This document shows positions 4,503 to 64,000 of a DNA stretch of 64,000 nt, piece after piece. A program made the translations under genes and the position numbers. The stretch is from Lepisosteus oculatus (taxonomy: Eukaryota > Chordata > Actinopteri > Semionotiformes > Lepisosteidae). Position 1 is the first letter of the stretch; each line of letters begins with the position of its first letter. The stretch is from contig NC_090711.1 of the NCBI RefSeq assembly GCF_040954835.1, forward strand, positions 13,449,001 to 13,513,000, in the 5' to 3' direction. The notes beneath the pieces were generated by a model. It worked only from the letters and a program-made list of their open reading frames with translations, was not told the origin of the DNA and did no database searches.

Positions 4503-6822
4503 ATGAACACGGTAAGTGAGCCCGTATTTTTTTCATTAATAAATAGATTGCGGGAGCCCAGATTCCACTGGCCCGTCCGTTGTCAAGCGACTGATTTAGC
4601 GTTTCTGAAAGATCATTTTGTAAGAAGGTATTGCTTAGGGCATGAAGATCATGGGTCCATTCAAAGAGTTCCTTAGACTGTTGAGGACTTTTCTAACGGT
4701 TCAATGTCTTGGGGGAGGCACTGTAAGAGCAGAATAGAGAAATTATATCGAACATCAAGGAGAAAATGCAGTTGCACGATGCTGCCAAAACACTGACAAG
4801 AGCTCCTTCAAAGTACTGTAATGACGGGGCACGGTGCATGTATTTCAAGCGCTGGCATCTGGCATTGTAATGTGACTGATGAACAGAAACGATCTTTTCA
4901 CTACAGTGACACGCTGTAGACCGTATATAATAGATACAGTAGAAGGGGTAGAACTAACCGCCTGTGCAGATTCAGGACTTTCACCTGCAGCTCCGCGCCA
5001 CTCAGTGAAATCATGTAACCGCGGACGACTTTCAAATAAGAGCAGCGAAGGACGAACTTCTCTATCCCTCTCTTCAGACGGTGTGGTTTTGCTGCTCTGT
5101 CCTGGTTTTCGCTGCGGGCAGCGGCGCCTCGCTCACGCCGACCTACCAGTGGAAGGATGACAAGACGGGGGAAGCCGTGACGTGTGAGAAGTGTCCTCCC
5201 GGAACTCACATGAAGCGGCACTGCGGCAGAGACAGGCGGACCGAGTGCGCGCCGTGCCCCGGCCTGCACTACACGGAGTTCTGGAACTACATCGACGAGT
5301 GCCGCTACTGCAACGTGTTCTGCACAGAGAACGAGTTCGAGAAGCGCAAGTGCAGCCGGACGCACAACAGGCTGTGCGAGTGCCGGGCTGGTTTCTACCG
5401 GAGATACGAGTTCTGCATCAGACACAGCGTCTGCCCAGCTGGCGAAGGAGTTGTTGCGAATGGTACGTGTGTTCGGTAAAGAAAAATAGATTTTATAGAC
5501 TAAGAATATATGGATTTTTTTTGTGCGTTTGGCATAAAGGCTTAGTGTGTACAAGAAAGTGGACATGAGCGCAGAAGACGAGAGTTTGAATATGTCCCAG
5601 GTTGAAAAAGCGAAACCTGGGACGTTTAAGCCCAGGTATTTAATGATGTGTCAAGTACCGTCTCCACTGAATATTTTGAGGATGTCGTGAAATAAAAGAT
5701 AATAGTGCGTAACAGATGCACCCAGCTTGCTTTTAAAAGTCATTTTTTTTAGCTGCACAGACATTGTTCAACTACACCTATTTTTTATAGTTACTGTAAT
5801 AACGTCTGCTGTACTATAGCTGAACATAGGTCACGTCCATGCGCTTTCAGCTCCCGGCTCACTCCCCGTCTCTCTCCTTCCCGGTCTCCGCAGGCACGGC
5901 GCATGAGGACGTGCAGTGCCAGACCTGCCCCATCGGCTCCTACTCCTCCTCGCCCTCCGGCACGGAGCCCTGTCGGCCGCACAGATGGTGCCCTCCCGGG
6001 CAGCTAGCCATCCCCGGCGACGACAAACACGACACCTTCTGTTCTTCCTGCAAGAAATACGGGAGCGAGGAAATCGCTAAAAGCGTTGAAGGTATTTTTT
6101 TGTTTGTTTGTTTGTTTCCAATTTAATTTCTTAGCCCTTACTAAGAGTGCATCGCAATCAGATTATTGTCCGTAGTTGAATGAGAATCACTTTCAGTTCT
6201 CTCGACATTGAGTTAAAGGACACGGCTCCAGTTTTTGCAGGCTATTCAGGTGTACCAGCAGAAACTGCTTTCATGTGACCAGGGCTCGGTTTCCCCTGCG
6301 GGGTTCATGACGCATTGCTGGGTATCTGAATAGACGGGAATTCTGTCACTTCAAAAGTGAAAACCTTTATTGTGCGTTTCAGGGAAAGAGTCATTGTGTA
6401 GGGTTACAGGTGATTTCCACTGAGCCGAACTTTGCATTGGGATTTTTTTTCCCCTCTAACTTGTTGCATTCTGGCTCTAAGGTTCTGTTGAAGCCAGGAA
6501 ATCAGGTGGGGTGAAAATAAATGTGAATGAATGGGTGCCATTTGTTTACACAGCTAAGAGGCTCTGCGACCGAGAAGTAATGGAGTACGTGGCACAGCAG
6601 CACCTCTCAGAAAAGAAGCTGAAGAGGCTTATGACTGTGGCCAAGAAGCGCACCCGGGAGAACGCCACTGAGCAGGAGGAGGGCACGCTCCTGAGCTTGT
6701 TGGACTCCATCTCGAAGAATGAGCACGGTCGAGATTTCATCGAGGAGATTCTTTTCATTTTGAAGAAGGCCAAGCTGGCGAACCTGGAGAAGAAGGTGAA
6801 GAGATGGTTTATGGAGCGTTAA
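4503..6822 (+). CDS. TNFRSF6B: TNF receptor superfamily member 6B (decoy receptor 3), complete
   Basis: Secreted decoy receptor. The family binds TNF-type ligands such as FasL, LIGHT and TL1A and blocks signalling. Coding exons: 4503-4511 (only ATG AAC ACG, donor GTAAGT), 5078-5462, 5894-6091 and 6554-6822. All phases agree and give 286 aa (human 300). Residues 1 to about 21 form a signal peptide (MNTTVWFCCSVLVF). Residues 26-195 hold the cysteine-rich repeats with family signatures (PTYQW, CPPGT, FWNY, CRYCNV, CPPGQ). There is no transmembrane helix. The C-terminal 89 residues are helical and strongly basic (KKLKRL, AKKRTR, LEKKVKRW), matching the heparan-sulphate-binding tail of DcR3. NGT (131-133) and NAT (234-236) are possible glycosylation sites. 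The short first exon rests on the splice fit; the in-frame GTG at 5081 is not a start. The neighbour ARFRP1 supports orthology with DcR3 rather than osteoprotegerin. Confidence 0.93.
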
Positions 6823-15990: not shown

Positions 15991-16599
15991 TATTCGTGCT
16001 GCTCTTCCTAAACTCAGCTTGAGCGCACCATGCTATCAGGCTCTGACCTTCTCCTTAAACCTCATCTGGCTGGTTCTGACTTCTGTGCCTGCGCCGTCGC
16101 CAGATTAAGACGATACTGAGTGTGTCTACGAACTACAATTCCAAGAAGTTAGACAAAGTTCAACAGAAGTGGTTCACATTTCTAATGCAAAACAGTACTA
16201 TGACCTGACTGGGAGTTCTCTTAAGCTTATAAACAGAAAACAGAACTGTATTAATCACAGTAGATAAACATCAACGTAAAACATTTCCATACGAGGAAAG
16301 CAGGGAGGGAGCACAAATTAAAATGTTAGAAAAAGTATATTGTTAACAATTTATTCATGTTTATATGGTGCTACTGTATACCCACTTTACTGGGAAGTGA
16401 ATGGGTTATTCCCAATATATACATAAATAATAAATGAGGGGGAGTAACTCCTGTTTTCAGATAACTGAACTGTTTCCGAGAGAGAATAAAAAAAAAGAGG
16501 AATATGAACTTTGAGATTAGTCTCTACTGTAATAGTGGTGAGAGGAAGTTGTACTATCACTGCCTCGCCTTTTTGTCAGTCATTATTTAAGAGCTGGAA

Positions 16600-16745
16600 C
16601 TACTGGATTATGGTCAGAAAAGCAGCACTTACTTACAAGGCACTTACTGCCTTGTCTTTCTCACACCTGAAGAAGGCTCCACGGCCGAAATGTTGTGGTT
16701 TCTTTCTCCTTTTTTTCAGCATGGAATAAACCTATTACTTGTTCC
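16600..16745 (+). repeat. Retroelement 3'-end fragment with hammerhead-like core
   Basis: CTGAAGA (16667-16673), a GGC/GCC mini-stem (75-77 with 84-86), then GAAA (16687-16690), followed by a pyrimidine tract and GGAATAAACC. The segment CCTGAAGAAGGCTCCACGG looks like a dispersed fish repeat. The order CTGANGA, stem, GAAA resembles the hammerhead ribozyme core carried by Penelope-like elements, but one extra A precedes the stem, so activity is doubtful. Confidence 0.45.
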
Positions 16746-16812
16746 TATATATATACACATGATCAGTTTATATAATACAATACAGAGCCAGACGTGTAAA
16801 GTAAATGAATAT

Positions 16813-16818: not shown

Positions 16819-18090
16819 TTGAAAACATTTAAACATAACTAATGGTGACTGTAGTGCCCATTTGCTGGAAAATCCTGTTTTCTTGTAAAATTATTTGATT
16901 CTGGAAAAATCTCAAACTTCAGTGACTTCATGGAAAACTATTCAGGGAAATTCAGAAGACCACCCCTTTCAAAAAAACAAACAGACCTTTGAATTCATTT
17001 TCACTATCATTTTATGTACTGACGTACTCACGGTAACCTAATGCAGTTTTACTATGACAAAACAGAAGCGATACTTAATGACAACGTCTATTCCACCCAG
17101 TTTACTACTGTGGGAACTGGAAAAATCAAGTCAGGGAACAAAGGGACAGAAGCTCAAAGGACAATACAAAGAAAGATGTGTGTAAACAAAATGTGTAGGT
17201 GTGTATTGTTTCTGGAATTGCTATGTACAGGTAACACACACATAATCTGTGGTTCTCAATATAAGAATCAGGCCTTGCTTACTCATTTTGCTTCCCTCAG
17301 TGAAACGGGCTACGTAGTCTTAGTTGGATAACTTCTTTTTCCAACAGCAACAAAACGAAACACAGTCTGCAGCTGCAGGCCCTGGTGCATTGCACATCCA
17401 CCAGGCTGACCTGAAAATGTTAATGCATTCCTAAGACCAATGCGTGCTGGAAAGAAATCTCATTCCATCCTACAATGTCACTGATCACCCCTGATTGTTT
17501 GCAGCCAAGCCTCTGAGGCACACCACCAGGAGATCCTTCTTATTTTGCCTTATTTCCTGGTTGACGTAAGTTTGCAATTACTTAACGCCATGGTGGCGTG
17601 TGTTACAATGAATAACAATGCTCAAGAATGCGTGAACCACACGCAGGATTAAAAAAAACAACAACGTGTGGAACATGTCATGCTTGAAGAGCGAAAAACT
17701 CCCCCCCCCACCAAGTCAGCTGAATAGCTGAGCTGTTCTACCCCCGATGTGGTCACGATGTGCAGGGTCACACAGAGAAATTACGCAAAATGCTATTCTT
17801 TGAAAGCCGGCTACTGTTACAGATTACAATCTAGTTTCACATGGTATAAAAAAGGCCTAGACACCAAAAGAGCAACTATGTGGCATGCAGGTGATTGTCC
17901 AATCAGCATCTGTGCCACCACCGTCAGTTTCTACCCCCACAAAGGTACACAAACACAATGCATTTAAGTCTCCGACAGGCGAGCTATACAAAAAAACCCA
18001 ACACGTTTTCTTCTTGACAGGCCAACAGGAGTGATCGGCAGTACATGTAGCGGGGGCTTGATCCCTCTGAAGCTGCAGGGGTGCAGGGCC

Positions 18091-21000
18091 TTACGTGATG
18101 TCCTTCTGCCTGGGAGGCCGGTGAATATTTCTCACCACACACTTGACCATCCACTCGATGCCTTCGTTGACTCCTTGGCTGCAAAGCAGGAAGCAGAGAC
18201 AATGAGTTTGTTCACCTCGATCACGTCATGAATTCAAAAGGCAGAGGGGTGACCCAATCAAATACAGCTGTATTGTGGTAACCGTGTTGCACCCTGGAGA
18301 AATGGGATCTGATTGTCAGACACGTACTGTAGGATCCAGGGGAACCACTCTCTAGCCTGAGAGATTCTATACCCTGTTACTGCACTGATGCTATAAACCC
18401 CCTCTGGTGTGCACAGTTGATCTCAATAATCCTGTGTGTTTTCGTGCATTCTCAGAAAGCCTATCCCAGGAGTAGGGGCTGCAAGGTGAGACCATACGCT
18501 GAACAGGACAGCACTCCATTGCAGTGCAAACACACACAGACAGATTAAGAGAAATGTATTAATTAACCTGGCCATTAACTAACCGGACTGGAAGGTGGAA
18601 GGAAACTGAAGCACCTGGAGAAAACCCGCACAGAAATGGACAGAGCATACAAACTCCACAGAAGGCTCTCCAGTCTGAAACAGAATCCAGGGCCCATGTC
18701 CTGCATTGTATTAAATTCCAGTGTTCCACAGTTTTCTTGTGTGTATAGTAAATGCATTATATATGCTCATTATGAAGTCTTTAATTCCTTGTACAGCCAT
18801 CTCGAAGAAATGATACCCCTTGGTTTTGTCAATTCTGGCAATGCTGGTCCTGACATCTAAAGAGATTCTAAGAGTTTATGCTGTATGCACCGAGAACAGC
18901 CTTGAGGACAGATTTCTGTTAACATTAGTTGTGACAAAAGCATTGTTGGCATGAGCACAAAACATGAGCTAGAACACCCTGTCCTCTCCTTTCCATAAAC
19001 ACCTCGCCTCCATGTAAATGTCAACTAAGCAAGTCCGTGTGGAAATGATCAACACTAACGTCAATCTAAACGCAAGGGCTCCCCTGAAAATAAACAGTGC
19101 TTTTTGTTATGCGCATTCGCCTCGAGGAAAAACATTCCACATTGAGTTCTTCGGATGCTCTCGGGCTGGATGTCCCAGCCTTCTTCATCTGATTAACGGG
19201 AGCTTCCACGCATCAGGGCAGACTTCTTAAACCCTACTGTGCCACTGATCCAGTGCTCTGTCATTGAGATACCTTCCAACCTAGGTAGTGCACTCAGCAA
19301 TATCAACTGCATCACTAAAGGAAGGCCCGAATCCACCTGCAAGACTCCTAGTTTGTCCTGAACCTAGTTTGTCTTGTCGTCAGTAACCAGTCTCCTGCTC
19401 GGCACCATACCATTGGCTCGGGTCCCTGCAAGATTCCCGGACAGCGGCGCAAGCTGTGCTCGCCTCCAGTGCTGTCAGATCGCGATCGTCATCTTTCTCT
19501 CAGTATATCTGCATATCTCCGTCCTGCCTCGGCCGTCTCTGTCAGCCTCAGTTCACCCGCCCACTTCGGCGGTCTCCGGCTGTGAGCCCCTCCAGGTGTT
19601 CTCACTTGGGTTCTCGCGCCTGTCTGCATCAGCTCGCTGCGTCATAACGCTCTTCTGCCCGAAACTCCCTTTTTATGGGTGTCCTGCTCACAGGTTTTGA
19701 TCAAAACTAGCTGCGATCACAGATCTCAGCTCTCTTGGCAGATTTTAAGCACTTTCAGATCTCAGCTGACAAACGTATCGCTCCGTGTAAAAGGAGAAAA
19801 CGCAATGTATTTACATGTTTAAATGTCATCCATGGGCAACAGATGCTTTCTGTTATGAGGTGAAACCCCAGAAGGTGCACTAGTGGAAAATCAGAGATGC
19901 ATCATTCTCCATTTCTTATAGCACAACCTCATGCTGACACAGCAGTTAAAAGGGAATTTTCAGAAATAAAAAAGCAGCAAAACATTTTACGGCAACTATG
20001 GCAACTGTCTTGGGAATGCCTCTTCTTAAAACAGCAAGCTGAATCATCCTTCATTTAAACTATTATTTTGCCAAGTACTTATCCAATAAACAGCTCCCCC
20101 CCTCAGTTTCTGAGCCTTGATTTCCGTTTCTTTTGTTACAGCAGAACACTCGTTTTATTTTTTGTACATTTTTGCAGTGTGTTTTCTTATTCCCTTGTGC
20201 TCTAAAACGAATTTTAAAAAAAGATTCAGTGTCTATAGGGGTAGTAATATACTTCCTTGGATTAAGATTAAAGCAGTGTTTTTTTTCCAGTGTAGGCTTG
20301 TACCTCAAAAGGGAATTCTTATCATCACTCTTATTAAACTTTATTGAGGTGAATTCATTACAGAGCATTCAAATAACTCCCACACTCACCGATCCCAGTT
20401 TTGTCAAAGAGCTTTTTTTCCCCAAAGAATATCCTAATATTGCAGAGGCACTTGAGCCTTCACAAGACCCCAGATGAGATGCAAATGACTGTAAATTCCT
20501 GCAGTAAACTGGATAAAAAGGTTGAAAATGAGCCAGTTTCAAGGAGAAAGACAAAGTGGTGCACTACAAGGTGGGTTAAAGGGGAAGAAAATGGTTTTCA
20601 GGTAGAAAAGGTGGCGAAACACCAGAAGGTTGAAGAAAAGAGAGGAAGTTGATTCCCAAATCTGTCCAGCTGGAGAGTAGCCTGAACACAACCGAAAAGT
20701 AGGGCAATACTACACTCTTATCAGCAAAAGAAAGCCCAGGGCACGCACCACCTGAACAAACACAAGGAGCCTGTTTTATAACTGTTGTTTGGACTGAGTT
20801 GAATCAATTGACACACAAAATTCCAATGGGGTCAGGACATCCACAGATCAGCTCCCGTGACAAGTTCGGTTCGTAACTTTGTAGAACAACAGTAAGGCAG
20901 CAGGCCGGGCCCATTTGAAAACAAACATATGGGAGTCTGTTTCTCAGATAATGGCAAGACACAAGTCTTAACAAGTGCATTCCCTGTGCTTTACAAGTGG

Positions 21001-22429
21001 GCAGAGTCTGAGGGGTGTGAGAAGATAAGGGCAGGTGAGCCTAAGAACTCCAGGCCTCTGGCTTTCCTCACGCCCACGAACCACGGCCTCCCTTTGTTCC
21101 TTGCTTGCTCTTTTCTCACGAAGGAGTCTGTCTCACACAGATGCCAAACTGAAACACAGGTGAGCCAGGCTACAGCTCAGCACCCTAGCTCCAGAAAACG
21201 TCTTGGGATCAAATTCAGAAACTTCCATTCTGAAACGAGCCTTTCTGAAAAACCTGCAGCTTGAGTGAGCCCAAAGTCCAAGTAAAACTCCCAATTCACT
21301 TTAAGTGCAAGAAATAATTAACTTAGGGTTCACCAATGTGCTCCTGCCAGTTAGATTTGTGCCTATACCTTCGATAACCTGCAACGACCTTTTCATTTGT
21401 GTCATGAACACGCAGAAAGACATTTTCCTTCCACAGTTAAATTATTTCAAAAATAAACCGGGACTTTTATGTAATCAAATGTATCCGTTATGCATTTTTA
21501 TGCTGACCGTTATTAAAAAGAAAGCATTTTAAAGATTTTTGAAAAGGGTGTTGTTTTCTCAGTAACATACTGTCCTAATAACATTTAGTCAAATTCAAAA
21601 TAAGGAATGTCCTTCCGCTTGCTAAAGATTTCACAAGGCATGTGAAAAAAGGTCACTAACATTCGTTTACTGCCATGTCTCTGGACTGGGGCAACAGAAG
21701 CGGTAAGTCAAACACCTTTGAAAATACCACAAAATCCCCTTATGTGTGTTAAAGGTAACTATATCAATTACACGTCATGGCGAGATGACTGCTACTCCCC
21801 CTGGGTGGAGTCCCGTGTTTCCAAGGCTGTTTTTAATGGCCGTGCTTCCAAATGAACACAATATCATATCACCATATCACCCTGCAACTCACAACTGGCA
21901 ACCCACTGAAGCTAAGCAGGTGTGAGCCTGGTCAGTACCTGGATGGGAGACCTCCTGGGAAAAACTAAGGCTGCTGCTGGAAGAGGTGTTAGTGGGGCCA
22001 GCAGGGGGCGCTCACCCTGCGGTCCATGTGGGTCCTAATGCCCCAGTGTAGTGACGGGGACACTATACTGTAAACAGGCGCCGTCCTTCGGATGAGACAT
22101 AAAACCGAGGTCTTGACTCTCTGTGGTCATTAAAAATCCCAGGGTGTTTCTCGAAAAGAGTAGGGGTGTTACCCCGGCATCCTGGCCAAATTTCCCCATC
22201 GGCTGTTATCAATCATGGCCTCCTAACAATCCCCCTCTGTGAATTGGCTTCATTACTCTGCTCTCCTCCCCACTGATAGCTGATGTGTGGTGAGCGTTCT
22301 GGCGCACTATGGCTGCCGTCTCATCATCCAGGTGGATGCTGCACATTGGTGGTGGTGGAGGGGAGTCCCCATTACCTGTAAAGCGCTTTGAGTGGAGTGT
22401 CCAGAAAAAGCGCTATATAAGTGTAAGCA

Positions 22430-22467
<38 letters not shown>

Positions 22468-25400
22468 AATCATGTTGCGATGAGCTTCTGGTTCCAGTTA
22501 ATTTCACTTGATGTGTCTGTGACAATCTTTAGACATGCAGCTTTTAAGCTACTGAATGTTATTTGGAAACAATAAGACTGGCAGTGTGGCGGATCAATTT
22601 TTTCACAGCTGGGTGGAAACAGTTTCTCACACAGCCAGAGTGCTGAGGGCTGCGGGCTTGTTGCTCGGGAACGCACGCGGGGCTGAGCTCTGAAAGCCCT
22701 CCAGGCTGCGCACGGAGCACACGTGCCCTTACCCGGTGAGCGCTGTGCACGGCTGCACCAGGCAATCTCGTTTCCCAATCTTCGGCGCGCAGTCGCTGAA
22801 CGCCGTCTTGATTTCCGGAACCGACAGGCAGCCCTGGGGGACAAAAAAAAAGCAAGGGGTTCAAAATAAAGTTGTCTTATTTTCAATAGGTTCCACAGCT
22901 TGTTCCCATCTCCCCACGCCCCTCCCCTCCCCCCCCACTGGGAAGAGAAGTGCCTCTGGGTGCCTTGCTTCTACGTGACACCCATTTTTGGCCTCTAGGT
23001 CGCGTTTGGCTGCTGATTGTGAAGACATTCACGGGACGGACGTGGTCATTTGCTGGTCAGGATTGTGAACACTTGAGTCCGGGCCCCTCGCAGGTTATCT
23101 GTTTTCAGGACTAAAACGATTCCGTTGTTTTAGCCTGTCGATGTAGGACATGCCTTTGAGGTCAAGCAACGTAATGCAAGACCATATGGCAAAAGAACTT
23201 CTCCGCATTTGCCTTACAAACACACTGCAGTACTAACTCGGCCACTCGTTTTGCAGTTCACCATATTTTCCCACAGTAATACTGCACTATGCAATTCCTA
23301 TACCTTGTGTCTTGCTGTAGCTCAATTTTCCCTGTTTTCACCTGTGTGTCCTATAGTAGACTCTAATGTAGTAGTAGTATAGTAAACTCTAATGAGGCGC
23401 CTGTTAATTCCTACTGTGCATGTACCATTTCCTGATTTAATTCCCACCATTTCATGTGCTACTGACCTAATGCAGCTTTTGGGGTTTTGCAAGAAGTTAG
23501 AAAAGGCCCTGCCACAGTTCTCAGTTCAGACATGTGGCTTCAGGTGCTCTGTCGCGAGAACACTAAGAGGAAATGGATACACGATATTGAATATTTTTAG
23601 CCACTCCAGAACAAAAGAACAATTGCAAATGGGGGACTTTAATCAAAGTAGTTTCAACCTCAAAAATATGGCAGAGTAGTTTATTACAGATATCCTTAAT
23701 CCTTTGTGTGAAGAACTCCCTCTTGTTCACCATTGTTATACGGTTTCCATTTGTGGACCAAAGGCAAGATGTAACTGCATGAATGTACATTTTAATGCCC
23801 TGTTATTGACACTTGTTTATCCCATTTGTCTTATCTGTTGTGTGTACAACAGGGATGCAGAGATTCGAGCCACTCTGAGTCAGTGAAATAGGAACAGGGA
23901 TCAAGCCCAGGAAAGACGGTTTGCACAGCCAATCAAACAAAGCTGGTATGTCTTTCGACTGTGAGTGAATTAGCAAGGCAATTTAGAGACACCAATTTAA
24001 CTAGATTTCCTACCACCAACATGGGACGAAACCAGAGAACCCATGCAAATTCCACACAGAAGATGCCCAATCCCAGAACCTCCAGAATCCTAGAGCTCTG
24101 GGGAAGCAGCCACACCAGTGTGCAGCCCAATCTCCTTTGTTGAAACTATCTTACACAGCCTAGCTTCACATGTCTCCATGCATCTTAGATTAGGAAAAGT
24201 CTCCCCCTGGTGGAGACAATTGATATAAACTGTTCTTTGAAAAAATGTGCAGAGATTCCAATTGCTGCAGTATTGGTAGCAACTTCTGCAGTATTATCCG
24301 ATTGGCATAGTTCATTTTAGAATTTAACCAAAGAACGTTTCCAATGCAAAACTCAGACTTTGAGGAGAGACAAAAAATGTACATAGCAAAAGCTACAGTA
24401 ACTCAGCACAGGAAATATTGTAAAATAATGTGTCCAGATGTACATGGAACAGTTTACGCTAACCCATAGGGCCTACTGATTCTGCTGTGGTCTTCTGCAC
24501 AAACATTACTGCTGAAGATGTAAGACTACAGGTTTTGTAAAATAATCAGCAGCACTGGCTTGTACCAGAGCTGGAGCTGGGGGGGAGCTTGATTAAAGCC
24601 GACTCTGGTGCTCTGGAGTGGAGCTGGAATACTGGAGCTGGGGGTCTCAGCACTGGTGTGGAGCTGGAATACTGGAGCTGGGGGTCTCAGCACTGGTGTG
24701 GAGCTGGAAAACATGGAGCTGGGGGTCTCATAGTCTGGAGAGGAGCTGGAATATTGGACCTGGTGGTCTTAGCTCTGGAGAGGAGCTGGAATACTGGAGC
24801 TGGAGGTCTTTCAGCTCTGGAGAAGTGCTGGAATACTGGAGCTGGGGGTCTCAGTTCTGGTGAGGAGCTGGAATACTGGAGCTGGGGGTCTCTCAGTCTG
24901 GAGAGGAGCTGGAATATTGGACCTGGTGGTCTCAGCACTGGTGTGGAGCTGAAATACTGGAGCTGGGGGTCTCAGCTCTGGAGAGGAGCTGGAATACTGG
25001 AGCTGGGGGTCTCTCAGTCTGGAGAGGAGCTGGAATACCGAAGCTGGGGGTCTCTAAATCACTGAAAGAACTAAGGCTTCCTTAGAAAAGGGTAATCTAT
25101 CAGCGCAGTGCCAGCTGGAGCAAAGTCCATCACAGCCAAGACACGTACGAAACACTGACTGTGAAGCACTTTGGCCCATCTCCATTGGGTCGGGTTGGAG
25201 GCACAGGCCCTGCTCCCCTGCTCTGATCACCCCACCAAGGTCCCGGCTCTGGCTGCGATGTCCTGTTTCCTGGTTGGCCATTCACACCGAACACAGAATT
25301 GCAGGCAGTGTAGCAGACTCACCTCCACGTCCTGCTTATTGGCCAACACCAGGAGAGGAACGCCTTCTAAAGCCTCACTGCTGATCATCTTCTCTGAGAG

Positions 25401-28400
25401 AGAAAGAAAACAACTCACAACAACAGCACCTTGCGGGAGCATCCACCTCTGTCCAGTGATGTTGCATTTTGAGGACGTCTTAAAATAGGGCACCGCTAGA
25501 AGGGAGCGAATACTTTTACAAGGCACTGTAAATAAGAACATCACAAAAGTGCCTTTTGCAGAATGCTTTTACTGCTGTACCTCAGAATGCACACAACCAT
25601 GGGAATGCGAAAAACTCACTTATGTAAAGACATTTGTCTCCAAAGCACTGAGTTCTTGGTTATGTTATCAGGCCACAGTTCCCAGTTACACAACAGATGC
25701 GACACTGATATAACATTATAACGTGATTGAGGGGTCCATACCTGGCAGACTGCATCATGTGTGCTCCACATTAGAACAAGGATTACTATTCTTGGTCCTG
25801 ACTCATTTACAATCACACGAGTCAAATTAATACTCTATATACAGGAACGTCTCCTCCATTCTTTAAAATTGACCCCAGTCTTTCATATACATTACATTTA
25901 TTATTAATATAAGTTAAGTTTAAAATAGACAGAAAATAAGCACATTTGTACACATCTATAACTGTAATGGTTCACAGTTGTTTTTTCCAAAAATTAGGGA
26001 AGGGCTTATTTTTACTTTCAGAAAAAAGTATAGTGCTATAGCTTGGGATATAGAATAACTACTGTATCTATTTCAACAACTATTAGTGTTCCAGAGCTTT
26101 TGCTTTCTGTGATAATATACTTGTTCTTTTACGACACTTGTATTTTTGCTAAGCATAAAACAACTCAATAAAGCACTCTTTTAAAGTTAATTGCCTTAAG
26201 AAAACACTGATGTACATTAATTGCTTTCTCCATTTGACTGGAGGTTGGGGAGTTTCTTCATTTAAAGTGATAACTTGATAAATTAACTTTTTTTTTTATT
26301 TCTACAGATCTGAACCACGGTAGGAGAGCTGTGTGTTTGAAGAATTCAGCAGAGGGTGTCTTTTATGACATTTAATTTGCAAGTTTAATGCATATGGGCC
26401 CTTACTAATTTTAAAAGTTTTTTTAAAATTGTAAAAAACACTTCAAAATTGCTAAAATTGCACTTTCATTCTGGATAGTTAAACAGCATAACATTAGCAA
26501 CAACAACCGTGAAACCATGAGTTACTTTTAAATATGTTAGACATGTTTGGCCTACTGATTCTGCTGTGGTCTTCTGCACAAACATTACTGCTGAAGATGT
26601 AAGACTACAGGTTTTGTAAAATAATCAGCAGCACTGGCTTGTACCAGAGCTGGGGCTGGAGGGGAGTTTGATTCAAGCTGACTCTGGTGCTCTGCAGTGG
26701 AGCTGGAGGTTACAGTCTGGAGAGGAGCTGGAATACTGGAGCTGGAGGTCTTTCAGCTCTGGAGAGGAGCTGGAAAACATGGAGCTGGGGGTCTCACAGT
26801 CTGGAGAGGAGCTGGAATATTGGACCTGGTGGTCTCAGCTCTGGAGAGGAGCTGGAATACTGGAGCTGGGGGTCTCAGCACTGGTGTGGAGCTGGAAAAC
26901 ATGGAGCTGGGGGTCTCACAGTCTGGAGAGGAGCTGGAATATTGGACCTGGTGGTCTCAGCTCTGGAGAGGAGCTGGAATACTGGAGCTGGAGGTCTTTC
27001 AGCTCTGGAGTAGATCTGGAATAGTGGAGCTGGGGGTCACAGTCTGGAGAGGAGCTGGAATACTGGAGCTGGGGTTCACAGTCTGGAGAGGAGCTGGAAT
27101 AGTGGAGCTGGGGGTCACAGTCTGGAGAGGAGCTGGAATAGTGGAGCTGGGGGACTCAGCTCTGGAGTGGAGCTGGGGGCCACAGTCTGGAGAGGAGCTG
27201 GAATAGTGGAGCTGGGGGTCTCAGCTCTGGAGTGGAGCTGGGGGTCACAGTCTGGAGAGGAGCTGGAATACTGGGGCAGGGGGTCTCAGCTCTGGAGTAG
27301 AGCTGGAATAGTGGAGCTGGGGGTCTCAGCTCTGGAGTGGAGCTGGAATACTGGGGCTGGGGGTCACAGTCTGGAGACTGTAATATACACTGTGCTCTGA
27401 AATACTTTTCCAGCATCTCTTCTGTGGTGCAGCCATGGTAATCCAGCCTTTGTGAAAACACTTCTCTCTCTATAAAACAGCACCATTCCTAGATACAGTA
27501 CCTGACTAGCAGACGTAAGGACAAAGGCTCCCTGCTGTACTCACCAAAGGCATTCTTCGATTCAGACAGCCGCTCTTCATCAGTGGAGTCGATCACGTAT
27601 ATCACCCCATGGGATTCAGCGTAATACTGCACCAGGAGGGAAACAGATCTGAATCAACCCTGAGCAGAGTCTGCATGAACACCTTTCTCCCCCTTTCCCT
27701 TTCTTGCAATATGTCTCAGTGTTGAACAGGGATTAATTTTTGCCTCAGTACACAGTGGGAAAAGACTGCAAGACGCGTCAGTAAGGCCACATCTGGCACA
27801 TGGTGTACAAGTTTGTGTTCCACATTACCAAAAGACATTGCTTCTAGGGAGTTTTCCCAGGAAAGAGTAACCAGGTTAGTTCCTGGTTTTAAAGTAATGT
27901 TACACTGGTCTTGAAAAAATGAAATTATGAGGACACTTGATTCATGCATTTAAAATCTTTCAGGTTATTAACTCAAATAATCAAGTTGGAAAAGTGGATA
28001 CTGAAAGGATGTCCATTCAGTACAAAGTATGGAAGTATTTTTTTCAACAAGTTACCCATTACTGTTGTTATAATGAAGCATCAAATGGTTCCATATGTTC
28101 TTATATATAGGTCCTATGACAGCTTCCTTTTGGTAGCAAGGCTCTGGGAGGTGTGCAAAATAAATGACGGTTGTAATTGGGCTCAGGAATTATATATAAC
28201 ACACCCTAATAAAACAAAAACTAAAAAAGTTTTAAATAACATTTAATACCACTGATAACCCTTCAGTGACCTCTAGTGGTCTTAATGGTCACTGCAGGTG
28301 TCTCCATGGGATAGCCTACCACAATTGTGAACAGCAGTGCTTCATGCCTCACATTGCAAAGCAACTGATAAATATTTAGGAAGAAGATTCTGTGAATCAC

Positions 28401-29349
28401 AATATGAGCTATTCAGTTGCAGATTTTAGCTATACTATATATTATAGCCAGGGCCGCATGGCAGTGCAGTGGTTGGCATTGCTGTCTCATAACGCTGGTG
28501 CCCTGGGTTTTAATTCCGGGCCTGGGGTGCTGTCTGTGTGGGGGTTGTATGGTCTCCTGTGTTTGCGTGGGTTTCCTCTGGGTGCTTCCATCTCCTCCCA
28601 CAGCTCAAAGAGATGCTGGTAGGTAAACTGGCCCCAGTGTGAGTGTGTGTCTCTACGTGCCCTGTGATGGACTGGCATCCCATTCAGGACGTATCTCGCC
28701 CATGGCCCCCCAGCAACCCTGAATTGGATGAGGCAGTTAGACCAGTTCAGGCAACCCCACTGCCTTGCCTTACTTTGTCCCACAGTGACTGCAGCTCGTC
28801 TTGACCTCCCAGGTCCCAGAACATGAGGCGCGCCTTGCCCACATCTATTGTGCCAACTGATCAGGAAAAGGGAAGGACACACAGATCAGTCTGATTTTAA
28901 AACATTGGCTGTACTGTCTAGATATATAAATATACTGTACAATGTATTTCATACAAAGAGGATCAAAACTTACTGTTCAAGCCCACAGTGGTGGTGATCT
29001 TGGACAAACTCATGCCCTTATAATTCTTGCTGAATTTAGTCTTGGTCTGCTCCAGAAATGTCTATAGCAATAAATGGAAACGGATGAAATCACTCAGTTG
29101 GCAAAATCTCACTGTCTAATAATACACACACACATATATATATAATGCATTTGCAAGTGTACAATAAGAGAATCACATGCAGGATTTTATATTGCCCATA
29201 AATCATACTGTCCATAGGTCTAAAAGGCATTCACTAAATTCACTAAAACAACTTACAGTTTTCCCTGCATTGTCTAAGCCGAGGATCAGAATGCAATATT
29301 CATCCTTCTGGAACATGTATTTGTACAGACCCGATAATAAGGTGTACAT
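18091..29349 (-). CDS. ARFRP1: ADP-ribosylation factor-related protein 1, complete (7 coding exons)
   Basis: Arf-family small GTPase of the trans-Golgi. With SYS1 it recruits ARL1 and golgins and supports post-Golgi sorting. Exons in transcript order: 29257-29349, 28974-29061, 28774-28856, 27545-27626, 25323-25393, 22733-22833, 18091-18178. Every junction is GT-AG and in phase, giving 606 bases and 201 aa, the same length as human. Motifs: G1 GLDNAGKT (24-31), switch region KITTTVGLN (52-60), G3 WDLGGQ (74-79), G4 NKQD (134-137), C-terminus PPRQKDIT. The N-terminus [13 protein letters not shown] is the classical one, where the family is acetylated on Met instead of myristoylated (there is no Gly2). 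The introns are large, and two of them hold copies of one minisatellite on either side of exon 5. An upstream in-frame exon (31358-31455) may extend the N-terminus. The gene is head to head with ZGPAT. Confidence 0.96.
18452..18705 (-). repeat. tRNA-headed SINE, family B (copy 5), decayed
   Basis: Inside the last ARFRP1 intron. Recognisable pieces are AGCCTATCCCAGGAGTAGG, GCACCTGGAGAAAACCCGCA and CATACAAACTCCACAGA. It is strongly diverged. Confidence 0.65.
19370..19700. other. GC- and CpG-rich patch in the last ARFRP1 intron
   Basis: About 330 bases that are much richer in CpG than the surrounding intron, including TCGCGATCG at 19478-19486. It matches none of the SINE or LINE families found here. 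On the minus strand a CATAAAAAGG element precedes a GC-rich tract with several ATGs, but no clean long exon. It could be an internal promoter, an enhancer, or the remnant of an old insertion such as an LTR. Confidence 0.35.
19720..21865. other. ARFRP1 last intron, unassigned part
   Basis: Intronic, AT-rich, with no repeat family or internal exon that I recognise. Confidence 0.45.
21872..22468 (+). repeat. 5S rRNA-derived SINE (copy 3), full length
   Basis: The most complete copy. The 5S head has CATATCACCCTGCAACTC, A-box GAAGCTAAGCAGG (21908-21920) and a C-box-like block with TACCTGGATGGGAGACC (to 21952), so the internal Pol III promoter looks largely intact. The body follows, then the 3' end AAAGCGCTTTGAGTGGAGTG and GCGCTATATAAGTGTAAGC, and a (TTA)n tail at about 22430-22467. 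It lies in the last ARFRP1 intron, antisense to the gene. Confidence 0.9.
23955..24120 (-). repeat. tRNA-headed SINE, family B (copy 6), fragment
   Basis: Recognisable pieces are GGGACGAAACCAGAGAACCC and CATGCAAATTCCACACAGA, and it ends near CAGCCACACCAGTGTGCAG. It lies in the ARFRP1 intron between exons 5 and 6. Confidence 0.6.
24470..25063. repeat. 40-bp minisatellite array 1 with duplicated left flank
   Basis: A flank of about 150 bases (24470-24620) is followed by about 11 units of 40-42 bp built on GGAGAGGAGCTGGAATACTG and GAGCTGGGGGTCTCAG. The flank and the unit recur at 26549-27375 at about 96% identity over the flank (by eye). No unit variant carries a stop in any plus-strand frame, so long open frames arise by chance. 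The array lies in the ARFRP1 intron downstream of exon 5. Confidence 0.9.
25830..26545. other. ARFRP1 intron between exons 4 and 5, unassigned
   Basis: AT-rich intron sequence with no repeat or exon recognised. It separates exon 5 from the second minisatellite array. Confidence 0.45.
26549..27375. repeat. 40-bp minisatellite array 2 with duplicated left flank
   Basis: A direct-orientation copy of the block at 24470. The identity starts abruptly at GGCCTACTGATTCTG (26549). The array is longer (about 17 units) and more varied, with unit types ending in AATACTGG, AATATTGG, AATAGTGG and AAACATGG. It lies in the ARFRP1 intron upstream of exon 5 in transcript terms. Confidence 0.9.
28446..28745 (+). 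repeat. tRNA-headed SINE, family B (copy 7)
   Basis: Begins GGCCGCATGGCAGTGCAGTG. It has GGGTGCTGTCTGTGTGGG, GGGTTTCCTCTGGGTGCTTC and TGTGATGGACTGGCATCCC, and ends CCCTGAATTGGATGAGGCAG. It sits in the ARFRP1 intron, ending about 30 bases from exon 3. Confidence 0.85.
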
Positions 29350-29989
29350 CCTGGAAAACAACAACCAAAAAAAACAAAACAAAGATCATTTAAAATGCCC
29401 ATTTGGACTTTAAAAATACACATTAACAGATGCTTGATATTTGAGCAAGATCATACGCATTGCTTGATACTTTAAATCAATGCAGAGTAAAGATGTAGAG
29501 AAACGAGCCAGTTAATACATAGACAGGTAGGTGTAGATAGATCCACAAGGTAGGTGAAGAAGTCCTTTTTGGATAAGAAATCATGTGCGAGATAGGATTT
29601 ATTGTAGTGAGAAATTTACCTTTTTTCCCCCAAAAAGCACAAAACCAAGTTTGCTAGCTAGCAGAAAGTAACTTGGTAAGTGTGGCTAATGACAGCCTTC
29701 TTACACAGAGCACAAACAGGATGGGAGACATGTGTTGAACTAGTCTTTCCAAACAATCAAGTCATAATATGGTATTCTTTGAAGAAAGTTCAGGTGGGCA
29801 GCTGCATCAGCATGCGTAGGCTGCAAAGGAACAAGTAAAAAGTTTATTCCATGCTGAAAAGAGAAGAAAGAAAACACAACAAATGAAGAAATGAAGAAAT
29901 GGTGACATGGACTCACAGTGGTTACCACTGCAGCCTCAAAGCGCTGGGGTCTAATTTATAACAATGATCTAGATTCCGGCACAGTTAGT

Positions 29990-30720: not shown

Positions 30721-31357
30721 ATTACGTTATAACTATAATAAATATTATAATGTATACTCCGGCCTCATCAGGGAACGACTGGATGAGAACCCAGGATCAA
30801 TAGCTTCTAGTTACCAAACGGGCGAAATGAGAAGAATCGTGACGTTAGTTCCGTGCTTCTGATTATATCTCGGCTAATGTTTACCTTTGTGTCTGGGATC
30901 GCCCGCACTTTACTTGCTGTTTAAGGTCTTAATAATCCAGCTGAGATGGAATTGAGATGATAGATTTCACTTTATAAAACCGTACAAAGGCGAATAGCTT
31001 ACACACTCTCAGGTTAATATAATTGTAAATGCTAGTTCTTTTGTATTGGGGTGGATGTATTTAAAAGTGCGCTGTTAGAGATGACTGGTATTCCATCTAA
31101 TTTTACTTAGGACTAAAATCCTTGTATACAGTACTGTCAAAATAATGAGCTCAATTACATTATAAAACAAACAAAACCAACTGGTTTGCAGCAGTACAAA
31201 CCACAGGCTATAACTATTAACTCTGAATCAACATCCCTGTAAAATAATAATTTCTCTAATCCGTCGCTCTTTTCCTTTTTTGTTACCATCCTTAGATGTT
31301 AAAATAACCATACATGCATTTGAAAACTGCTCTTATAACACATTTCCTTGAACTTAC

Positions 31358-31455
31358 CTTTCATTTGCGACCAAGTCATCATCCGTAAATAGGAAGTGCT
31401 TACCGACTGGCAATGCACTGTAGGAATTGATGTTTTTTGTTGGTTTCACCCCCAT
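31358..31455 (-). CDS. ARFRP1: Predicted upstream exon of ARFRP1, in-frame N-terminal extension
   Basis: Read on the minus strand: a strong start context (GCAGCCATGG), 32 open codons and a split Arg codon, then donor GTAAGT (31357-31352). The acceptor before 29350 (pyrimidine tract, CAG) supplies the missing base, and the next codon is the classical Met1. The result is 33 extra residues (MGVKPTKNINSY at the start, FLFTDDDLVANER at the end) in frame with ARFRP1 and no stop. Human ARFRP1 as I know it has no such extension. The exon certainly fits as a 5' leader exon; whether its ATG is used is open. A second donor inside it (GTAAGC, 31403-31398) would instead leave an out-of-frame upstream ATG. 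Confidence 0.5.
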
Positions 31456-31485
31456 GGCTGCTGAACGGATGTCCTGAGCTTGAAA

Positions 31486-31505
31486 ACTACAAATCCCAGG
31501 ATACC
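31486..31505 (+). promoter_or_regulatory. ZNF143/THAP11-type motif at the ARFRP1 promoter
   Basis: ACTACAAATCCCAGGATACC closely resembles the ACTACAATTCCCAG motif bound by ZNF143/THAP11. It sits about 31 bases upstream of the upstream ATG at 31455. Such motifs are typical of housekeeping and bidirectional promoters. Confidence 0.55.
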
Positions 31506-31600
31506 ATTGGAAAGGAAAAGGCCGGCGTGTAGTTTGCAGTGGTTACTGGGAATTTACGTTTTCACTGGTGCTTCTAAAACTGTAGATGTGGTCCAAATAC

Positions 31601-31620
31601 ACTACAATACCCACAATTCA
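31601..31620 (+). promoter_or_regulatory. Second, weaker ZNF143-type motif
   Basis: ACTACAATACCCACAATTCA matches the same consensus with two or three changes, 115 bases from the first motif and in the same orientation. Confidence 0.4.
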
Positions 31621-31629
31621 CAAATATAC

Positions 31630-32470
31630 TCTAATAACTTCCTCTCAAAAATGGAAGGATATCAAATTGTCATTTAAATGGTGACTGCAATATCAGAACC
31701 GGTAAATGTAAGGTTACATTGCTTTTCTTATACTACATACCTATCAGTAATGCAGGATTTCTGTATGGAAGATTGTTAGCAACAGTTAGCAACTGAGCAA
31801 CAATTTTTTTTATTTTTGTATTCCAGTTTATATATTTTGCGATTATACATCCTGATCAGTAGTTACCGTAAATATATTTAAAGGCATCAAACGCAAGAGA
31901 TAAACATAGTTTTGGTATAAGTAACAAATCTGTGTTTTTAAGGCTCTCTTTGTATGTATCATTTAGTTCTTCGTGAATAAACGATTAAAAGTAAACAGTA
32001 TTTTAAGAAATAATTTCTGGTTTAATATTTGTCTCCGTTACATGTTATAGATGTTATAAATGTTATTTTTCGTATGTGTAATTAAATTACTAAAGATATT
32101 GCTTTACAATTACACATTTTTGAACGGCGCCTTAATTAAAACTAGCAAAATACTTTTAAAATCAAAGCAATTGCTTTAAAGTAGCAATAAATAGCACTTA
32201 TTGCATGGATTGCTTATCTCAGTGTTAAAGCATTTTCAGAGACAAATACGCTAGTTTTAGTACCCAATTTTTTACCTAGTTTAAACAGAGGTTCATACGG
32301 ACGTCTGTGAAATGTTGACATCAGAAACCTGCAACTTAAGATGTGAAATCGATCGTTTCGTCTCTGGGATGCGTGACAGGTCTCATCTCCGTGTTAATTT
32401 ATTCGGAAAATTTTATTGCTTTATTCTTGCGCTGAAGGCTAAATTGTCGGATTTCTCATTCTTCCAGCTT
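31630..32470. other. Shared intergenic region between ARFRP1 and ZGPAT
   Basis: AT-rich head-to-head spacer with no recognised repeat. The candidate untranslated first exon of ZGPAT follows: its donor AAAG|GTATTT is at 32565/32566, and the matching acceptor GCCAG is at 32788-32792, 37 bases before the ZGPAT ATG. Confidence 0.45.
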
Positions 32471-32829: not shown

Positions 32830-35800
32830 ATGGACGAAGGTAGCTTGGAGGCGGCCATCGAGACTTACCATGCCCAGCTCCAGCAGGTGGAGACGGCCCT
32901 GGGCGCCGGGCTGGAGCCCTCCCAGCAGTCCGACCTCCTGCAGCTGAAGGAGGACCTGCTCCAGCTGATCGAGCTCACCGAGGCCAGCCTGGTGTCCGTG
33001 AAGAAGAGCCGGCTGCTGGCCAGCCTGGAGGGCTCGTCGGCCTGGCCGGCGGAGCCCCCCGCGGGGCAGCCGCCGGCGGGGGACCCCGGCATGCGGGACG
33101 AGTTCGCTGCGTTTTACGCGGCGGTGAGCGAGCCGTCCTGCGCCGAGCCTTCCACCAGCGAGAGCGCCCCTGCGGCCCAGAGATCTGGAGGAGGATCCGG
33201 CAGCCCCGGATCTCAGCAGGCAGCTGAGGAAGAGGAAGAGGAGGAGGAGGAGGAGGATGTGATGAGTGGCATGAAGGTCTGTGCCCCTTACCGCACCTCC
33301 TGGGGAACGCTGGAGTACCACAACGCCATGGTGGTGGGCACAGAGGACTCGGAAGATGATGACCCGCAGGTCCGGGTTCTGTATGTCCACCCGACCCAGA
33401 AGTCCATGAAGCCCTGCCCCTTCTTCCTGGAGGACAAGTGTCGCTTCATGGACAGCTGCAGGTGAGGAGCTGCAGATTGCCACTGGGAAACTGCATCTGT
33501 TCCCCTCTGGATGGGTTCAGAGGCAGACTCGCACAACCATTGTACCCCTGAAGCTGAAAATATGATGGAATGCATTGCAGTTGTTTTAGCTCTTGCATAC
33601 CTTTCTGTGATTTATTCCAAAGAATTCAAATTAAAAAATACACAGCACCTCCTTCTTTATAACACACTGGATTCTTTATAGCTTCTTGGCTGCTATGTAA
33701 CACAGACAAAAAGAAACATATCCTAAAATAATGAAGCATGTTCACTCGGAGATAAGATCGCTTTATTGGCCATATACAATTTCTTGCACTAGGAATTTGT
33801 CTTTTCACATACCCCAACTTGCTCTCCATGAGACCCACAGACAGGGAGAGAAGCTTGGGGTTAGAGCGCAGGGTCAGCCACTTATACGGCACCCCTGGAG
33901 CCGTTGGGGTTAAGGGCCTTGCTCAGGGGCCCAACGGAATAGGGTTCCTCTGCCGGCCGCGGGATTTGAACCGGCAACCACTGACGTGGATTGAAGTTGG
34001 GGTTAAAGCTGCACGCTGACCCCTGTGATTGCCGTGCCTTTAGACAGAACCGTTGTTTATAAATGGAGCAAAGCCGTTGTGATTCGGCTGCTCTGAGCCG
34101 GCGCTCCGGATCGAATCGGAATTGGAGTGCCCGCGATACCGAGCATTCCCGTCCGTTCCCACACTGTCGTGAATCTCTCCCCGAGTTCGTCCTTTTCGCC
34201 TCCTTCAGGTTCTCCCACGGAGAAGTGGTGTTGGTGTCCGAGCTGCGGCCTTTCCAGGAATCGGACCTCAGCTCACTCCAGGAGGGCTCAGCCTGTTTAG
34301 CCAGGCATGAGGATGGCATCTGGTACCCGGCCAAAATTACAGGTTTGTGGTGATCGCTCATAGGCCCTGAACGCACGTGAGGTACTCATGAAGTCGTCCG
34401 CACAGTGGACTGGCCAGCTTGCACTCATCATTGTTTGTCCAGCCATTCTGAAACATACATTCAGGTAACAATTTCAAAAAATGAGACAACACAGCAATAT
34501 TGAGCAGTGTTGGCATCTAACAGCAGCATGCAACGGCCTAATCTCACCAAAGCCTTCTTTGAAGGGCTCTCAGGGTTTGGTGGATTGTCCACAAATCTAA
34601 GTCTTTTCCCCGTGTGGCCCGTGTGGAGAGCCTGTGCACATTGCGGTACTTTGTGTGACCTTTTTGTGTCCTGCCGTTGCCCTTAGATGTTGACAGCGGC
34701 TACTACACAGTGAAATTCGACTCCCTGCTCCTGAGGTCCGCCGTGGTGGAGGCTGATGGCATCATCCCGCCCCTGAGGAAAGACGACCCCCCCTCGTCCG
34801 AGTCCGAGGACGAGGACATGGTGGAGGATTCAGCCTACGCCCGAGGTGACCCGGGACACGCCCTCGCTGTCGTGGCCCAGCTCGTTAGCGTGCTTATTCC
34901 ATCACGAACCTCCGGCTGTGCTTCTGGCCGGCACCAGCAGGAAGCATCGGAGAAGATGGGGTGGTTTAGACGGAGTAATCAGACTGTGGTTTCTGTGCTC
35001 GCAGTTTTTGAAATAACGTTGTTAATAATCCCTTGCATTTCTGTCACACCTTTCATTCCCAAATAATTCCAAAGTGATTTATCCAGTGGAGGGGATCCAC
35101 TTCATCCATCTCAAAAGCAGCAGCTGCCTGGGTAACTCACAGCTGTCATTAGGACCTGGGGGAGGAAAGTGGCACCGTGGTTAACACCCCTAACCTTACG
35201 AACTGTGCCATAGATCTTTAATGGCCAAAGCAGGCAGGACCTCAGTTTATTGTCTCATTCAAGTGTGGTCCATCCTACGGCACGGGATTCCCAGTCACCA
35301 TCCCCAGGGATTTGGTTTTGAATATTTTGGTCCAGAAGGAAGAGCACCACCTGGTCTGTTTACAGCAACCTCCTGGTTTTGCAAACCCCAGCCCAAGCAG
35401 GCCCAGATCTTCTGAGATCTGAGGGCCGCGAGCTGGGCGATGGTGACGGTGCTGACAGGGGTTGTAAGATGTGGGATTTCTGCTTCCGGATGAGCGGTCT
35501 GACATATCTATCTCTGTTCTGCAGTTGTGGATCTGGCCTCTGAGGCGAATGGGGACTGGGCTCCTTCCTCTTGCTCCGAGTTTGGGGGCTGGGAGGCACA
35601 TACCCGAGGCATCGGCTCCAAACTGATGGCCAAGATGGGCTACGAATTCGGGAAAGGTAAGAACTGTGGGTGGAACCGGGGTCCCAGGACACTTTGACCT
35701 CCCATGCGAAGACCATAAAATTGCATGGAATTGCAAAGCAGCTGCCGGAGGCTTTGCTTGTGCAAGCAGAGGTTTTGCTCCTCGAGTCGGCAAGGGGATG

Positions 35801-59431: not shown

Positions 59432-63620
<4,189 letters not shown>

Positions 63621-63639
63621 CTGTAGGTAGACAAGAAAG

Positions 63640-64000
63640 GTCACCAAACATACCTTACTAACAATGCAGTCTTGAAACAGTAGAAAACTACACTTTGATT
63701 TTTTAAACCCAGAATGCTTTTGCTCTGTCTTATACTTAATTGGAAATGTGATCATCAGCACCTGGGTTAAACAATTAAGGATTAGTTCAATTAGGGTCCA
63801 CAGCCCTCTGACGGCATGGAGAGCAAACTACCTCTGAACTAAAGCATTAAAAAATCCTGCTGGACCAGGGTTCAAGTTCTGAAGTTGTACTGTACATCAC
63901 TATAGCAGTTGGCTGGAGCAGTAACCAGATATAACTAACTGTGGAAATGAATGAACAGGAATTTTTCCGTTTGGTTGTAAGTGTTCTGTTGCACTTCAAA
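63640..64000. other. CHRNA4 intron, right edge
   Basis: Intron upstream of the large exon. The preceding coding exon, expected to end with a split Asn codon, is not in this stretch. Confidence 0.6.

Follow-up and report, generated by a model that had tools for sequence, protein, structure and literature searches.

An open in-frame ATG in the probable first exon of gar ARFRP1, beside predicted ZNF143/THAP11 motifs

Does the gar Lepisosteus oculatus produce an N-terminally extended ARFRP1, or does the stop-free stretch upstream of this gene serve as an ordinary 5′ exon? The question arises within a 64,000-nucleotide stretch of contig NC_090711.1, hereafter the window. Its minus strand from 31455 to 31358 comprises 98 bases without a stop codon and begins GCAGCCATGG. 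The ATG at 31455 lies in a strong context (GCAGCC ATG G), and the 3′ end of the segment reads AAAG/GTAAGT, placing a splice donor (AAG/GTAAGT; 31352..31360, minus strand) with its GT at 31357. The acceptor paired with this donor, TTTTCCAG/G at 29350, preserves the frame, and the junction codon AG/G encodes an Arg immediately 5′ of ATG TAC ACC. Once joined, the segment (31358..31455, minus strand), which we call the leader and regard as the open 3′ part of a putative first exon, reads MGVKPTKNINSYSALPVGKHFLFTDDDLVANER. Splicing it onto ARFRP1 gives 234 residues instead of 201, an extension of 33. A sequence-only reading of this DNA had described the open segment, its strong ATG, the GTAAGT donor, the phase and the Arg codon before Met1, all of which proved exact to the base. 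Absent from that account were the promoter motifs, three out-of-frame ATGs that overlap Met1, and a second donor inside the exon at 31403. The frame and splice signals expected of an extended proteoform (an in-frame upstream start and no stop) are present; the spliced transcript is predicted.

The downstream gene is intact. Exon 2 (29257..29350, minus strand) follows its acceptor with a single G and then the classical ATG, and coding exons 3 to 8 continue on the same strand at 29061-28974, 28856-28774, 27626-27545, 25393-25323, 22833-22733 and 18178-18091 (18091..29061 overall). Joining the seven coding exons (29350..18091) yields 201 residues, 175 of which (87%) are identical to human ARFRP1. 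A Pfam search with the joined 234-residue protein matched Arf (PF00025, E 9.4e-48) over residues 43-218, so that the leader lies outside the Arf domain. With this match and its 201 intact residues, the classical protein carries an ARF-type GTPase domain. The start of exon 2 encodes the Met-Tyr end predicted to undergo NatC acetylation and to bind SYS1, in an adequate start context (A at -3, T at +4). As the classical Met1 lies one base past a good acceptor, ARFRP1 requires an upstream exon. For comparison, human ARFRP1 is reported to have five protein-coding transcripts expressed at more than 1 TPM, besides one of the NMD class (PMC9714508).

To what extent does the leader stand out from its surroundings? 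Scored with a donor matrix, its donor reached 7.99 and ranked first among the 3516 GT dinucleotides of the minus strand, while 2 of the 3689 on the plus strand were equal or better. All six downstream ARFRP1 donors scored lower (2.5 to 7.7). The in-exon donor (TCG/GTAAGC; 31398..31406, minus strand, donor at 31403) received 3.63 with the same matrix, compared with 7.99 for the main donor; splicing there would take the leader out of register with ARFRP1 and convert it into an overlapping ORF of 38 residues. For comparison with the open frame, three stretches were dinucleotide-shuffled (5000, 5000 and 1500 times, respectively). In these tests, defined post hoc once the frame had been noticed, the donor was preceded by some open in-frame ATG, whatever its length, in 32%, 29% and 24% of shuffles, by one with at least 33 open codons in 6.7%, 7.4% and 3.1%, and by one that also had a strong context (purine at -3, G at +4) in 0.96%, 1.5% and 0.5%. 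For GT dinucleotides on the window's minus strand (3498 sites) the corresponding proportions were 26%, 4.9% and 0.57%. The two strands together have 60 good donors; an open in-frame ATG precedes 12 of them, with at least 33 codons in 4 and, in 2 of these, a strong context as well, namely the leader donor and the donor at 33462, which ends a ZGPAT-like first coding exon. As an exon, the stretch is far better than chance; its open frame is mildly unusual.

Codon usage was weakly coding-like. The leader scored 0.044 in the coding frame, the highest value of its six frames. A score as high occurred in 6% of base shuffles and in 345 of 2123 (16%) overlapping stop-free noncoding stretches (leader excluded), and 18% of 170 ARFRP1 windows scored as low as the leader. 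The leader alone matched no Pfam family. When the leader-plus-ARF protein was used as a query against the PDB, all 18 matches started at residue 37 or later, within the ARF part, and none fell in the leader. A repeat check of 31300-31700 against the window gave a top non-self match of 15 identical bases, with no sign of a repeat, and neither Rfam at gathering score nor a tRNA search found anything in the window.

The consequences of an extension depend on what the ARFRP1 N terminus does. That ARFRP1 requires its acetylated N-terminal Met, together with SYS1, was a premise of the sequence-only reading and is supported by published work (PMC10611716, PMC7864062, PMC5408665). ARFRP1 is reported as a NatC substrate, represented by an MYTL peptide, whose acetylated end is needed for SYS1 binding and Golgi localization (PMC10611716), and its Y2A and Y2P forms are cytoplasmic (PMC7864062, PMC5408665). 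Because acetylation of Met1-Tyr2 is required for Golgi targeting, classical ARFRP1 must be made, and an extension would bury the acetyl-Met/SYS1 end. The gar gene resembles the known ARFRP1 and yeast Arl3p type, ARF-family proteins with a NatC-acetylated Met1 and a SYS1 anchor, through its intact 201-residue product, its MYTL start (that of the human NatC substrate peptide), its Arf match and its 87% identity to human ARFRP1, but differs in having an upstream in-frame exon that could add 33 residues.

The leader itself starts MGVKPTK, which fits PROSITE PS00008. This fit is weak evidence because, of 387 ATGG starts with an open frame in the window, 17 (leader included) fit as well. Mutation of Gly2 in ARL14, like mutation of Tyr2 in ARFRP1, is described as rendering the protein cytoplasmic (PMC7864062). 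Like Gly2-myristoylated members of the ARF/ARL family, among them ARL14, a translated leader would present a Gly2 within a PS00008-type start; it would differ in that this Gly2 would sit 33 residues before the helix. A parallel to the extension is UBE2M, for which a high-confidence proteoform with 42 extra N-terminal residues is reported (PMC10267514) and which is listed as a NatC substrate (PMC10611716). Both are NatC substrates whose N-terminal end matters, but the UBE2M form comes from proteomics, whereas the long ARFRP1 is predicted. Among the literature matches listed for ARFRP1, a set largely outside the subscription journals, no extended form appeared.

Upstream of the leader, the plus strand carries two candidate ZNF143/THAP11 (SBS, M4) motifs, one proximal (31486..31504; ACTACAAATCCCAGGATAC) and one distal (31601..31619; ACTACAATACCCACAATTC). 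Each agrees with the consensus at 16 of 19 positions and includes an exact M4 match, ACTAYRNNNCCCR in the distal motif; binding of ZNF143 here is putative, from the motif match. They are the two best 19-base ZNF143/THAP11 matches in the window, 31 and 146 bases 5′ of the leader ATG, and a gap of 30 bases separates the proximal motif from that ATG. The window contains 3 exact M4 matches (the third at 17306, minus strand) against 0.52 expected, a count reached by 2 of 100 shuffles. With the 14-base core alone, the proximal motif and a site at 16132 each match 13 of 14 bases and the distal motif 12 of 14. The 16132 site (16132-16145, plus strand) is remote from the ARFRP1 start. Two further elements lie between the main pair in the opposite orientation, on the minus strand: an additional ACTACA at 31533 and, at 31559, a third SBS-like site of weaker match (11 of 14 core bases). 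A string match places a CCAAT box (NF-Y-like) at 31506..31510 (minus strand). Two initiator-like BBCABW sites lie at 31408..31414 on the minus strand, with A+1 at 31414 and 31408, and a third lies upstream at 31547; as such sites have a density of one per 58 bases, they are weak evidence. An M4/SBS motif close 5′ of a first exon characterizes ZNF143/THAP11 promoters, and this arrangement is found here, the first exon itself being predicted. The candidate promoter has in common with them its M4 motifs, two within 170 bases 5′ of the leader ATG; it differs in the 30-base distance of its proximal motif from a strong ATG, through which start choice could alter the protein.

Where would transcription begin? 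Relative to start sites, M4 motifs are reported to be most frequent around -89 bp (PMC5006282, relaying earlier work). Counted from the centre of the proximal motif, this distance predicts a start near 31406, 3′ of the ATG and adjoining the initiator-like sites at 31414 and 31408; from the distal motif it predicts one near 31521, 5′ of the ATG. The consequences would depend on the start. A transcript starting above 31507 would present a short out-of-frame upstream ORF first (MVSWDL and a stop, 6 residues; 31487..31507, minus strand, overlapping the proximal motif) and the strong ATG next. A start from 31507 to 31456 would place the strong ATG first and give the extended protein. From 31455 to 31365, out-of-frame ATGs would come first, so that Met1 would be reached by leaky scanning. 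There are three such ATGs (31382, 31379 and 31364; 31362..31382, minus strand), all in weaker contexts than the ATG at 31455, with one frame overrunning Met1 to a stop at 29286. Starts below 31364 would leave Met1 alone.

ZNF143 near a start site is described as inhibiting initiation there, and as repressing when bound over or just downstream of the start (preprint PMC11118474). If this proximity rule applies, few starts would be expected in the 30 bases between the proximal motif and the ATG, and occupancy of the motif would impede starts just above it. Such inhibition beside the motif would favour transcripts beginning below 31455, and the arrangement of the promoter points to many transcripts beginning at or after the leader ATG. 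In the sequence-only reading, even an untranslated leader would imply regulated start choice. This does not follow, because starts below 31455 are plausible so near the ZNF143/M4 motif at 31486-31504, and the ATG is mere promoter DNA if transcription begins there. A related arrangement is reported for the ZNF143 gene, in which ZNF143 sites in and after a non-coding first exon decide the start used (PMC3936768); the alternative transcript is untranslated there, whereas here the N terminus would change.

Given the donor together with the promoter motifs, 31358-31455 is, to judge from these signals, very probably the first exon of ARFRP1. Other donors do lie between 32900 and 29400, for example at 29619 (4.07) and 32868 (5.85), and might serve another first exon, leaving every feature described here a coincidence. 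With a donor that is the best of 3516 and two promoter motifs ahead of it, ordered and spaced as expected, we consider that outcome very improbable. It appears moderately probable that the stretch is a plain 5′ exon with a ZNF143/THAP11-type promoter and that classical Met1 gives the main product. The 98 bases would then be the 3′ part of a genuine first exon. ZNF143 on the proximal motif would keep initiation away from its immediate surroundings, and most transcripts would begin close to the ATG at 31455 or downstream of it, near 31406 by the -89 peak. The exon would serve as 5′ untranslated sequence; ribosomes would pass its out-of-frame ATGs by leaky scanning and initiate chiefly at Met1, one base into exon 2. 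Transcripts from farther upstream, for example from about 31521 under the distal motif, would give some extended protein, and the open frame would be mostly coincidence. The strand's best donor, the two top M4 motifs directly 5′ and the -89 peak suggest such an exon, as do the weakly coding-like codon score and the 3-7% frequency with which a frame this long arises by chance. The inhibition of starts reported close to ZNF143 (PMC11118474) and the requirement for an acetylated Met1-Tyr2 end also speak for it. Against it, the distal motif predicts starts 5′ of the ATG, and the core match at 16132 rivals both motifs.

Several further observations that count against a plain 5′ exon favour a genuine coding leader. 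Transcription would then start above 31475, with the strong ATG serving as the principal start or as a regular one; a 234-residue ARFRP1 with a masked anchor would be produced, either accompanying or replacing the classical protein, and would be retargeted. The context at 31455 is strong and that of Met1 adequate; a strong in-frame ATG over 33 open codons arises by chance in 0.5-1.5% of shuffles; the only other such case among the 60 good donors ends a coding exon; and the coding frame is the best of six by codon score. Were exon 1 wholly 5′ UTR, the three overlapping out-of-frame ATGs would burden Met1, and initiation at 31455 would bypass them, which argues for the extension. UBE2M, with its 42-residue extended proteoform, provides a precedent for a NatC substrate (PMC10267514, PMC10611716). 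We nevertheless judge a coding leader rather unlikely. Its codon score is equalled by 16% of noncoding stretches (345 of 2123) and by 6% of base shuffles, the extension would cost a conserved protein its Golgi anchor, the proximal motif speaks against initiation above 31455, and no homologue of the leader appeared in Pfam or the PDB. The strong ATG might also be used on transcripts from above 31455 for translational control of Met1, without a functional long protein. The 38-residue overlapping ORF created by donor 31403 and the three further overlapping ATGs are consistent with such control, but the main donor, at 7.99 versus 3.63, keeps the frame open, and we find this improbable.

Beyond the plain 5′ exon, which we continue to favour, the state of the proximal motif could conceivably set the N terminus of ARFRP1. 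Bound ZNF143 would direct starts below 31455 and give the acetyl-Met Golgi form; in its absence, starts above would give the 234-residue form, bearing a Gly2 myristoylation sequence, with the SYS1 anchor hidden and other membranes as destinations. We regard this model as improbable. Because Golgi placement of ARFRP1 rests on a single acetylated end, concealing it through a second start would form a simple on/off switch. The ARFRP1 pathway is reported to recruit ARL1 (PMC10611716) and ARL5 (PMC11585589), and if the long form is real, the switch would act on this pathway. If the stretch is simply a 5′ exon, it warns that annotation pipelines may include a 234-residue ARFRP1 which is seldom if ever produced, and it illustrates the use of promoter motifs in assessing gene models of this kind.

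The candidate ARFRP1 promoter lies about 1.4 kb from a divergent neighbour, whose first coding exon is an ORF at 32830..33465 (plus strand) that includes the donor at 33462. We take this ORF to be ZGPAT-like; it matched no family in Pfam. An open frame at 5009-5479 (plus strand) has the look of what we presume to be a TNFRSF6B-like receptor exon, and one at 62171-63640 (minus strand) that of a presumed nicotinic receptor subunit exon. Together with ZGPAT and ARFRP1, these presumed genes resemble the gene order of human 20q13.33. Two minisatellite arrays with a nearly identical 40-base unit occupy different ARFRP1 introns, at 24610-25054 (11 copies) and 26698-27377 (about 17 copies), and each also gives a low-complexity stop-free frame of 174 residues on the plus strand. 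A segment of ARFRP1 intron 1 (29827-29881) aligns with 16691-16746, downstream, over 56 columns at 89% identity, and possibly represents the end of a dispersed repeat.
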